Assembly: GCA_021805565.1 (NCBI GenBank)
Contig: JAJZFA010000054.1
Span: forward strand, 92,411-156,410
Length of the DNA stretch: 64,000 nucleotides
DNA from: Pseudomonadota bacterium
Lineage (GTDB): Bacteria > Pseudomonadota > Alphaproteobacteria > Acetobacterales > Acetobacteraceae
Direction of reading: 5' to 3'
The notes under the pieces were generated by a model. It searched no databases. It saw only the letters and a list, made by a program, of their open reading frames with translations, and was not told where the DNA came from. Positions 13,725-16,801 of this stretch are shown in pieces (position 1 is the first letter of the stretch; each line of letters opens with the position of its first letter). The position numbers and the translations under genes are program-made.

Positions 13725-15587
13725 TCAGGACGCCGCTTCCAGTTCTTCCTCGGCCATTAGCCATGCCGCCTCGACCACCGCGGCTTCCTTGGCAATGGCA
13801 CCCAGCCGCGCATTGGCATCCGTTATATCGGCCGTCCGGCCCGGCGCATACAGGGCTGGGTCAGCCAGTTTGGCCTCGATCCGCACCCGTTCGGCGGCCA
13901 GAACCGCGAGGCGCTTTTCCGCGTCCTGGGCCTTCTTGCGAATCGGGGCCAGGGCCAAACGCGCCTCCGCGCGCTCCCGCCGGTCGTCCTTGCGGGTGAC
14001 GGCACCGGCCTTGACCGCGGGCCGGGCGCGTTCGGTCAACAACGCGCGATAGTCGTCCAGATCGCCATCGAACGGCTTGACGGTGCCGTCGCCAACCAGC
14101 CACAGCCGGTCGGCCACCAGTTCGACCAAATTCGGGTCGTGGGTGATCAGCAGCACCGCGCCCTGAAAGTCCGCCAGCGCCTTGACCAGGGCATCGCGGG
14201 CGTCGATGTCCAGATGATTGGTCGGCTCATCCAGGATCAGCAGTTGCGGCGCGTCCCGCGTTGCCAGCGCCAGCAGCAAGCGAGCCTTTTCCCCACCCGA
14301 AAGGTTGGCGACCGGCGTTTCCGCGCGATCCGCATCCAGCCCGAACCGGGCGAGTTGCCCCCGCAATTTTGCGGGCACCGCGTTCGGCAGGACACGCGCC
14401 ATGTGGTCGATCGGGTTTTCGCCGGCCACCAGTTCATCGGTCTGGTGCTGCGCGAAATACCCCACTTTCAGCCTGGGACCGCGGCGGACTTCGCCCGACA
14501 AGGGCGCCAGCCGCCCGGCCAGCAGCTTGGCCAGCGTCGATTTGCCGTTGCCGTTGGCGCCCAGCAGCGCGATCCGGTCGTCCATATCGACCGCCAGCGA
14601 CACGTTGCGCAGAACGGTGGCGGTGCCGTAGCCGATATCCGCACGGTCGAGCACCAGGATCGGCGGCGCCATCCGCGCGGGTTCGGGGAAGTCGAAGCGC
14701 GTCGGCGCGTCTTCGATCACCGATTCGATTCGCGGCAGACGCTCCAGCGCCTTGATCCGCGCCTGGGCCTGACGGGCTTTCGACGCTTTATAGCGAAACC
14801 GGTCGATGAAAGACTGAATATGCGCCCGCTCCACCGCCACCCGTTCCGCCGCGCGAGTCTGTTGCATCGCCCGTTCGGTGCGGATACGGACAAATTCGTC
14901 GAACCCGCCGGGGGTGAGCGAAATCTTGCCTTTGTCGAGATGGGCGATCGCCTCGACCGCGCGGTCCAGCAAGCCGCGATCGTGCGACACCACCAGGGCC
15001 GCGCCGGGAAACCGCGCCAGCCAGGTTTCCAGCCACATCGTCGCTTCAAGGTCGAGGTGATTGGTCGGCTCGTCCAGCAGCAACAGATCGGGATTAGCGA
15101 ACAAAGCGGTTGCCAACGCGACGCGCATCCGCCAGCCGCCGGAAAATTCGGCGACCGGCCGGCTCTGCGCCGCCTCATCGAACCCCAGGCCCGCCAGGAT
15201 GGTCGCCGCCCGGGCCGGGGCCGAATCGGCACCGATGGTCACCAGCCGGTCATGCACCTCGGCCAGGCGAAGCGGTCCGGCGGCCTGCGCTTCGGCCAGC
15301 AGGGCCAGCCGTTCCGGATCGCCTTGCAACACCGTGTCCAACAACGACGCCGGACCCTCCGGCGCTTCCTGACGCACCGTGGCCATGCGTGCGCGCGATG
15401 AAAGCCGGATGTCGCCGCCGTCGATGGCGATTTCGCCGGCGATGGCCCGCAGCAGGGTGGATTTACCGGCGCCGTTGCGGCCGACCAGCCCGATTCGCCG
15501 GCCGGGATCGATCGTCAGGCTTGCCTCGTTCAGCAGGGTGCGGCCGCCCATGCGGATGACGGCGCCGGAAATAACCAACAGGGACAT
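13725..15587 (-). CDS. ABC-F family ATPase
   Basis: 620 aa with two ABC domains and no membrane segments. Walker A motifs are GRNGAGKST (about residue 36) and GANGNGKST (about 340). The signatures are FSGGWRMRVALA and LSGGEKARLLLA, each followed by DEPTNHLD. The linker between the domains is basic and helical, and a coiled-coil tail follows domain 2. This is the ABC-F plan (Uup/YheS group), whose members act on ribosomes or nucleic acid rather than in transport. Which subgroup it belongs to cannot be settled by eye. Confidence 0.93.
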   Translation of the reverse strand: MSLLVISGAVIRMGGRTLLNEASLTIDPGRRIGLVGRNGAGKSTLLRAIAGEIAIDGGDIRLSSRARMATVRQEAPEGPASLLDTVLQGDPERLALLAEAQAAGPLRLAEVHDRLVTIGADSAPARAATILAGLGFDEAAQSRPVAEFSGGWRMRVALATALFANPDLLLLDEPTNHLDLEATMWLETWLARFPGAALVVSHDRGLLDRAVEAIAHLDKGKISLTPGGFDEFVRIRTERAMQQTRAAERVAVERAHIQSFIDRFRYKASKARQAQARIKALERLPRIESVIEDAPTRFDFPEPARMAPPILVLDRADIGYGTATVLRNVSLAVDMDDRIALLGANGNGKSTLAKLLAGRLAPLSGEVRRGPRLKVGYFAQHQTDELVAGENPIDHMARVLPNAVPAKLRGQLARFGLDADRAETPVANLSGGEKARLLLALATRDAPQLLILDEPTNHLDIDARDALVKALADFQGAVLLITHDPNLVELVADRLWLVGDGTVKPFDGDLDDYRALLTERARPAVKAGAVTRKDDRRERAEARLALAPIRKKAQDAEKRLAVLAAERVRIEAKLADPALYAPGRTADITDANARLGAIAKEAAVVEAAWLMAEEELEAAS

Positions 15588-15759
15588 AGGCGGGGTTTAG
15601 CGCCGGGCGAGGCCGTTAGGAAGCACCGGTTGCTCTGCCCGGCCGAGCGGGCAGGATGTGCGGTCTGGTTCGGGACTCACCGCGGCCCCGTCGCCCCGCG
15701 GAACCGGGCGCCCACCCGCGATGAACCCTGGCCGGCCGTCGCGGCCTTACATAATTATC

Positions 15760-15779
15760 CGATAAGAATAAAATTATCG
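15760..15779. terminator. Weak AT-rich hairpin downstream of the HNH gene
   Basis: CGATAA and TTATCG flank an 8-nt loop 14 bp beyond the HNH stop, in a short AT-rich patch. It is a possible terminator for that gene. The rest of 15588-15792 contains no ORF. Confidence 0.3.
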
Positions 15780-15792
15780 CTATTTCCGCAGC

Positions 15793-16734
15793 CTATCCAA
15801 GGAAACGTTTGGCTCGATGATACAGCATATAGGCCCATTTTTGCTCCGAGAAGTGCCGCGGCAACGCAGCTTGCTCTAGTTGCCAACGCGACTTGACCTC
15901 AGCAGGCAAATTAGCCGCGAGCAGCATTGTCCCGTCTCGCTCGAACGTCATATAGCCCTGATCAAAAAGATGATCGATGTGCGGCGAGAGCATCAGTCCA
16001 TTATTTCCGTCTAGCCGTTCAGAGTCGTTTGAATCCTTCCATGGCTTGATGTGGCTCGCGCGAAGATGCTTGGGCGCCGCGATCCCTGTCACGCGACAGC
16101 TTTGCTCCTCGCGGAGCACCTCGATTCGAAATTTACCTTGCCCGCATCGCGCGGCTATCAATTGTTCCTTTTCTGTCGGGGATAGGTCAGACCGCGCGAT
16201 CAGTGCCTGTATGTCCTGATCCAGGATATTCGTGCCGGTATCGTATTTAATTAGAGGTTCGAACCGTGGCTCCGAACACAAGGTAGCCAGCGAAATTCCA
16301 AATGTCTCCCAACACAGTTTCTCCAGGTTGGGTAATTCGTCCCTTATTTCATTGTAAGATGATTGGTACGCATGCTCACGTCCATTTTTGTGAATCTTGC
16401 ACGCTTCAGCCTCGATCATCGAATCCAACCTGATGAACGGCTCCGCATCCAGAGAACATGCGTTAGCAAATCTTATTGGATACTCCGGCTTTCCTTTCCT
16501 GTTCGTTTTCGGATCTCCGTCCCACATTTGACCAAACCCGATGATTCCTTTGCTTCCCGTTTTGCCAACGCGCAGAAGAACAACCTGTTCTCCGGGCTTC
16601 GATCCTTTTATTAACTGCCACTCGGTTAGAATAAAGCCACCCCCTTGCTGACGGGCGTTCTGAAGATCGTTTTCCCACCGCTTCGCATCCATTCCCGCAG
16701 CGGGATTACCGATAGGCATATACGTTCTGACCAT
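15793..16734 (-). CDS. HNH endonuclease with N-terminal EVE/PUA-like domain (putative modification-dependent nuclease)
   Basis: 313 aa. The C-terminal half carries an HNH_2-type nuclease: CRVTGI, HLRASHIKPWKDSNDSERLDGNNGLML and HIDHLFDQGYMTF, with all expected His and Asn residues. The N-terminal half (FILTEWQLIKGSKPGEQVVLLRVGK, then GIIGFGQM) looks like a PUA/EVE-like fold, a base-reading domain that is fused to nucleases in modification-dependent restriction enzymes. The fold call is inference. GC is visibly lower than in the neighbours (about 45% in one 60-base line I counted), suggesting horizontal acquisition. No methyltransferase is adjacent, as expected for a type IV-like enzyme. AAGGAG lies upstream of the start. 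Confidence 0.75.
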   Translation of the reverse strand: MVRTYMPIGNPAAGMDAKRWENDLQNARQQGGGFILTEWQLIKGSKPGEQVVLLRVGKTGSKGIIGFGQMWDGDPKTNRKGKPEYPIRFANACSLDAEPFIRLDSMIEAEACKIHKNGREHAYQSSYNEIRDELPNLEKLCWETFGISLATLCSEPRFEPLIKYDTGTNILDQDIQALIARSDLSPTEKEQLIAARCGQGKFRIEVLREEQSCRVTGIAAPKHLRASHIKPWKDSNDSERLDGNNGLMLSPHIDHLFDQGYMTFERDGTMLLAANLPAEVKSRWQLEQAALPRHFSEQKWAYMLYHRAKRFLG

Positions 16735-16801
16735 ACGCGAACGTTGCTCCTTATCCAGCTTTCACTCAATTTTTCCCACAACGGAGGGGAGTCCGGTCTC
16801 A

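Follow-up and report, generated by a model that had tools for sequence, protein, structure and literature searches.

Why a single AT-rich gene sits among housekeeping genes in an Acetobacteraceae genome, and what its product might cut, are the questions raised by this locus. The sequence-only reading had taken the gene for a type IV-like enzyme in which an EVE-like base reader is fused to an HNH nuclease. We re-examined it within a stretch of 64,000 nucleotides (the window), in the rest of the genome and among related proteins. The open reading frame of 313 codons begins with ATG and ends with a stop codon at 15793-15795. Related EVE domains begin with the pattern M-x-x-[FY]-x(4)-N-P, to which the N-terminus of the product aligns, hence the assigned ATG is probably correct. 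The features of the locus are collected in Table 1.

Table 1. Features of the EVE-HNH gene and its surroundings (positions in the window).
Feature	Positions	Strand	Basis
Whole gene, EVE-HNH fusion, 313 aa	15793..16734	-	ORF listing and translation; single copy in genome
Putative N-terminal modified-base sensor, residues 1-147, EVE-like, QSS(G) type	16294..16734	-	Profile score with controls; alignment
Inter-domain linker, residues 148-181	16192..16293	-	Alignment to 6YEX and domain limits in PMC7897488
C-terminal HNH (beta-beta-alpha-Me) nuclease domain, residues 182-313	15796..16191	-	phmmer to VcaM4I 6YEX, E 1.4e-36; Pfam HNH_2
Catalytic residue span, H228, N245, D254, D258	15961..16053	-	Residue check against residues mutagenised in VcaM4I (PMC7897488)
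Possible ribosome-binding site AAGGAG, 12 nt upstream of the ATG	16747..16752	-	Sequence reading
AT-rich island, coincides with the EVE-HNH gene	15740..16790	.	Composition

The gene has a G+C content of 51.2%, compared with 67.6% in the adjacent ABC-F gene (13725-15587) and 66.4% in the acyl-CoA synthetase gene (first 1.9 kb, from 16802). Third-position G+C is 0.55 in the gene and 0.81 in each of these two neighbours. The earlier remark that the gene is clearly poorer in G+C than both neighbours thus holds (51% against 66-68%), and no other stretch of this length in the window has so low a G+C content; the composition changes abruptly near 15740 and near 16790. The surrounding genes are of a housekeeping kind (ABC-F ATPase, acyl-CoA synthetase, MMPL transporter, aminopeptidase and terminal oxidase), and the gene lies outside any defence island. 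The N-terminal domain was found in one of the 33 genomes of the genus that were searched, namely this one, the remaining listed matches (E > 0.03) being noise; the ABC-F gene was not seen adjoining the acyl-CoA synthetase gene in the other genus genomes searched. An AT-rich island of one gene, housekeeping neighbours and a patchy distribution in the genus are as expected for a gene acquired on its own and not as part of a defence island. The EVE-HNH gene was probably acquired horizontally as a single gene, and probably recently.

The C-terminal half of the protein covers the full Pfam HNH_2 profile (residues 213-265, E 6.9e-13), which bears out the original description of a complete HNH domain. 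Residues 182-310 align with VcaM4I (6YEX) by phmmer at the E value given in Table 1, and all four of the VcaM4I residues H224, N241, D250 and D254 are kept, as H228, N245, D254 and D258. A tree of HNH domains places the protein among VcaM4I-type EVE-HNH enzymes with support of 92/86, slightly below the starred level. In a sample of the phylum, roughly one genome in seven carries relatives of this domain, fused to many different N-terminal domains. Joining of the VcaM4I-type HNH module to many unrelated N-terminal domains was seen repeatedly (L007-L015, L020-L046), and some of these domains recur across several genomes of this genus; DNA sensors not yet described may be found among them.

A sharp AT-rich island in one genome could also be the trace of a self-spreading HNH endonuclease, of the homing kind or otherwise mobile, that cuts at a fixed site; the sequence-only reading had named a homing endonuclease of this sort among the cases that would count against it. 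The foreign composition of the one-gene island and the absence of its N-terminal domain from the other genus genomes searched fit such an element. However, the gene is a free-standing frame between two intact genes, and not part of an intron, an intein or a conserved gene; no flanking repeats above chance were found. By the VcaM4I match and the tree, the HNH domain is of the free-standing restriction type and not of the homing type, and its family is spread over chromosomes and plasmids with many different sensor-like N-termini; the full protein matched only two phage records, in both through the HNH half only. We consider a homing origin extremely improbable.

The N-terminal half was more difficult to place. 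As a single sequence it gave no match in Pfam, the PDB, plasmids, viral contigs or 289 genomes of the class, and Pfam EVE itself did not match it. In order to search further, we used an EVE subfamily consensus solely as a seed, which also stands as one row of the query alignment (A7); all comparisons were made with the real sequences retrieved by the seed. The seed mainly retrieved EVE domains within McrB-like AAA proteins adjoining a gene annotated 'restriction endonuclease'. Five of the seven alignment rows match Pfam EVE independently, the query row not being among them, and the conserved positions of the putative sensor are W39, L53, R55, G63, G68, W71 and Q124-S125-S126.

A restriction-type EVE profile was built from eight EVE domains of McrB-like and other restriction proteins. 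The query N-terminus scored 20.7 bits with this profile and the HNH half of the same protein -1.3 bits. The highest score among about 8,000 shuffled sequences was 11.0 bits, and among 2,065 unrelated ORFs it was 7.8 bits; genuine stand-alone EVE proteins scored 19.9-26.1 bits. Comparison with hhalign gave a probability of 94% (P 8.9e-8) over residues 18-140. These scores support the view that the N-terminal half is an EVE domain, resembling the restriction-type group as much as true EVE proteins do, and at the level of sequence they uphold the first proposal of a base-reading PUA/EVE-like domain. A profile built from stand-alone EVE proteins did not reach the query N-terminus. Since neither this profile nor Pfam EVE matched, the link to EVE runs through the restriction-type subfamily.

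Two AlphaFold models made from shallow alignments had a mean pLDDT (46 and 47.5) too low to confirm the fold of residues 1-147. The predicted strand order E-H-E-E-E-E-E would fit an EVE/PUA fold, at this low confidence, and a Foldseek search with the first model, likewise of low pLDDT, gave noise and no match. In a separate comparison, kinship between the query N-terminus and that of another protein (L005) appeared as a weak lead and was unsupported on checking.

The closest characterised relative is VcaM4I, an EVE-HNH modification-dependent endonuclease known from structures 6YEX, 6YJB, 6YKF and 6YMG, in which the EVE domain flips out the modified base and a linker helix represses the HNH dimer until modified DNA is bound, whereupon the HNH domain cuts (PMC7897488). 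Cleavage by VcaM4I is faster on 5hmC DNA than on 5mC DNA, and the enzyme restricts phage T4gt; its isolated HNH domain is toxic and the substitution S23L kills the enzyme (PMC7897488). Fusions of the EVE-HNH kind are described in PMC7641849 and PMC7897488. The present protein shares with VcaM4I the two-domain layout, a similar length (313 against 309 aa), the type of HNH domain with its catalytic residues, the position of the linker and the status of an orphan gene. The linker lies at the place of the auto-inhibitory helix of VcaM4I (148-178), any helix here being putative, since the model has low confidence. In contrast, the EVE subtype differs: a VcaM4I-type EVE profile (MxYWWV... start, WSP pocket) gave the query -1.8 bits and an hhalign probability of 0.3%, and the putative pocket W39-Q40-L41 stands against W22-S23-P24 of VcaM4I, in a part where the alignment is uncertain.

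The EVE domains of EVE-McrB proteins (for example L054, L062 and L063) share with the query the EVE subtype by profile, W39, the strand G-D/E-x-V-x-L-x-R-x-G, K-G-I-x-x-x-G and the Q-S-S motif. This architecture belongs to type IV McrBC systems (PMC7641849). There the EVE domain works for a GTPase translocase, McrC being a separate nuclease, whereas in the present protein it is fused directly to an HNH nuclease. A gene on a contig classed as viral (L140:2092-2898) carries the same EVE subtype, also fused to an HNH nuclease, but of a cysteine-containing, McrA-like type and not of the VcaM4I type. Weak HNH similarity (17.4 bits) to ScoMcrA-like phosphorothioate-dependent HNH enzymes (NF045808) falls far below the cut-off of 180, and the sensor is unmatched. 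On present alignments the putative sensor groups near McrB-type EVE domains and the nuclease with VcaM4I. Because a sensor that is not of the VcaM4I type is joined to an HNH domain inside the VcaM4I clade, either an exchange of the sensor or its divergence beyond recognition is probable.

We then considered the methylation of the host. No C5-MTase or N6/N4-MTase match fell within the window, and tblastn found no Vsr or related MTase there. The earlier statement that no methyltransferase is nearby therefore stands for the window; it does not extend to the genome, since three C5-cytosine methyltransferases with open frames lie on other contigs and N6/N4-MTase matches occur in at least six places. 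Two of the three C5-MTases lie beside Vsr genes, one recognised by Pfam and the other by similarity. Vsr repairs mutations caused by 5mC. As two C5-MTases adjoin Vsr genes, the host itself probably carries 5mC. With such methyltransferases in the cell a general 5mC cutter would harm its host, which makes plain 5mC in every context an unlikely target. More likely than general 5mC cutting is a need for 5hmC or some other hypermodified cytosine, or for a narrow sequence context. The enzyme may thus read another base (5hmC or hypermodified) or a narrow context, or else the methyltransferases may be silent.

Several loci that carry these functions were recorded in their own right, three of them in the same genome (contigs C36, C47 and C11). 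On contig C36 (L142:9655-12550) a C5-cytosine methyltransferase, a HEPN gene (MAE_28990-like) and a GmrSD_N/DUF262 gene form a same-strand run of lower G+C, a possible defence unit. On contig C47 (L143:5689-10875, with L073:156-575) an Mrr restriction protein, a Vsr-like gene and a C5-methyltransferase lie within about 5 kb, and the Mrr protein is a candidate for a second modification-dependent enzyme beside a 5mC methyltransferase. On contig C11 (L141:8060-10680) Vsr and a C5-methyltransferase are accompanied by a gene for 214 aa without a Pfam match, possibly the matching restriction enzyme. On two rhizobial plasmids (L016:5022-6408 and L017:5022-6358) the gene immediately after a VcaM4I-type EVE-HNH gene is Vsr, or the sequence there is Vsr-like, and on the first of these, a Rhizobium plasmid, a cytosine MTase lies about 3 kb past the pair, a coexistence comparable to that in our host. 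One would not expect an enzyme that depends on 5mC to be encoded beside such 5mC functions.

The methyltransferases elsewhere in the genome also bear on the idea of a type II-like enzyme, whose N-terminus would read a fixed site while a distant C5 or N6/N4 MTase protects the host. The supply of such enzymes (three C5-MTases and N6/N4-MTases in at least six places) speaks for it, as does the labelling of two related HNH models in PADLOC as type II restriction enzymes. Yet no MTase lies near the EVE-HNH gene, a type II system being recognised by an adjacent cognate methyltransferase; the N-terminus scores as an EVE reader of modified bases; and the two MTase/Vsr loci and the HEPN/GmrSD_N locus look like self-contained units. 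We regard a type II-like enzyme as distinctly improbable.

It is also conceivable that the EVE domain reads a modification other than of cytosine, for example N6-methyladenine, or acts on RNA, a reading that differs from our preferred one in the target alone. EVE, YTH and ASCH are sister PUA families, and the YTH domain of T. gammatolerans McrB reads N6-methyladenine. One member of our alignment also touches Pfam YTH, and the 5mC methyltransferases of the host argue against a 5mC trigger. However, the data for a characterised EVE-HNH enzyme, VcaM4I, concern 5mC and 5hmC, and the several N6/N4 MTases of the host pose the same problem of self-damage for an m6A or m4C target. This reading appears rather unlikely, if less so than the type II-like one.

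Collectively, our data make it likely that the gene, an orphan acquired horizontally, encodes an EVE-HNH restriction endonuclease that is modification-dependent (type IV-like) and independent of NTP. Its orphan status follows from the lack of a DNA MTase in the window and from neighbours that are housekeeping genes only. Direct support here comes from the gene itself, from an HNH domain that is homologous to that of VcaM4I and keeps its catalytic residues, and from the EVE-type sequence profile; the VcaM4I-type HNH and the EVE profile favour the type IV-like assignment proposed at the outset. Against it count the missing match to Pfam EVE, the low pLDDT of the fold models, the putative pocket residues that differ from those of VcaM4I, and a location outside any defence island. 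We infer dimerisation, base flipping, auto-inhibition and phage restriction from VcaM4I. By this analogy the N-terminal EVE domain would flip a modified base out of incoming DNA and hold it in an aromatic pocket, binding of the base would relieve the inhibition that the linker exerts on a dimeric C-terminal HNH nuclease, and the released nuclease would cut near the modified base. The most likely purpose would be the destruction of phage DNA protected by modified bases.

A more specific model is that of a sensor-swapped EVE-HNH enzyme, in which a VcaM4I-type HNH domain is joined to an EVE reader of McrB type whose pocket has changed. In a host that methylates its own cytosines with three C5-MTases, such an enzyme would be tuned to a modified base that is not plain 5mC, or else to a narrow context. 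We hold this model tentatively and give it rather less than even weight; if true, it would be a natural case of the avoidance of self-damage.

This kind of enzyme is already known, and the unusual part is a sensor subtype unlike that of VcaM4I. To our knowledge VcaM4I is the only solved EVE-HNH example, and EVE sensors are far more diverse than this one structure. Modified bases can be mapped with modification-dependent enzymes, and a known nuclease coupled to a divergent reader in a host that probably carries 5mC could show what determines the choice of target base and how the enzyme is kept from cutting its own host.
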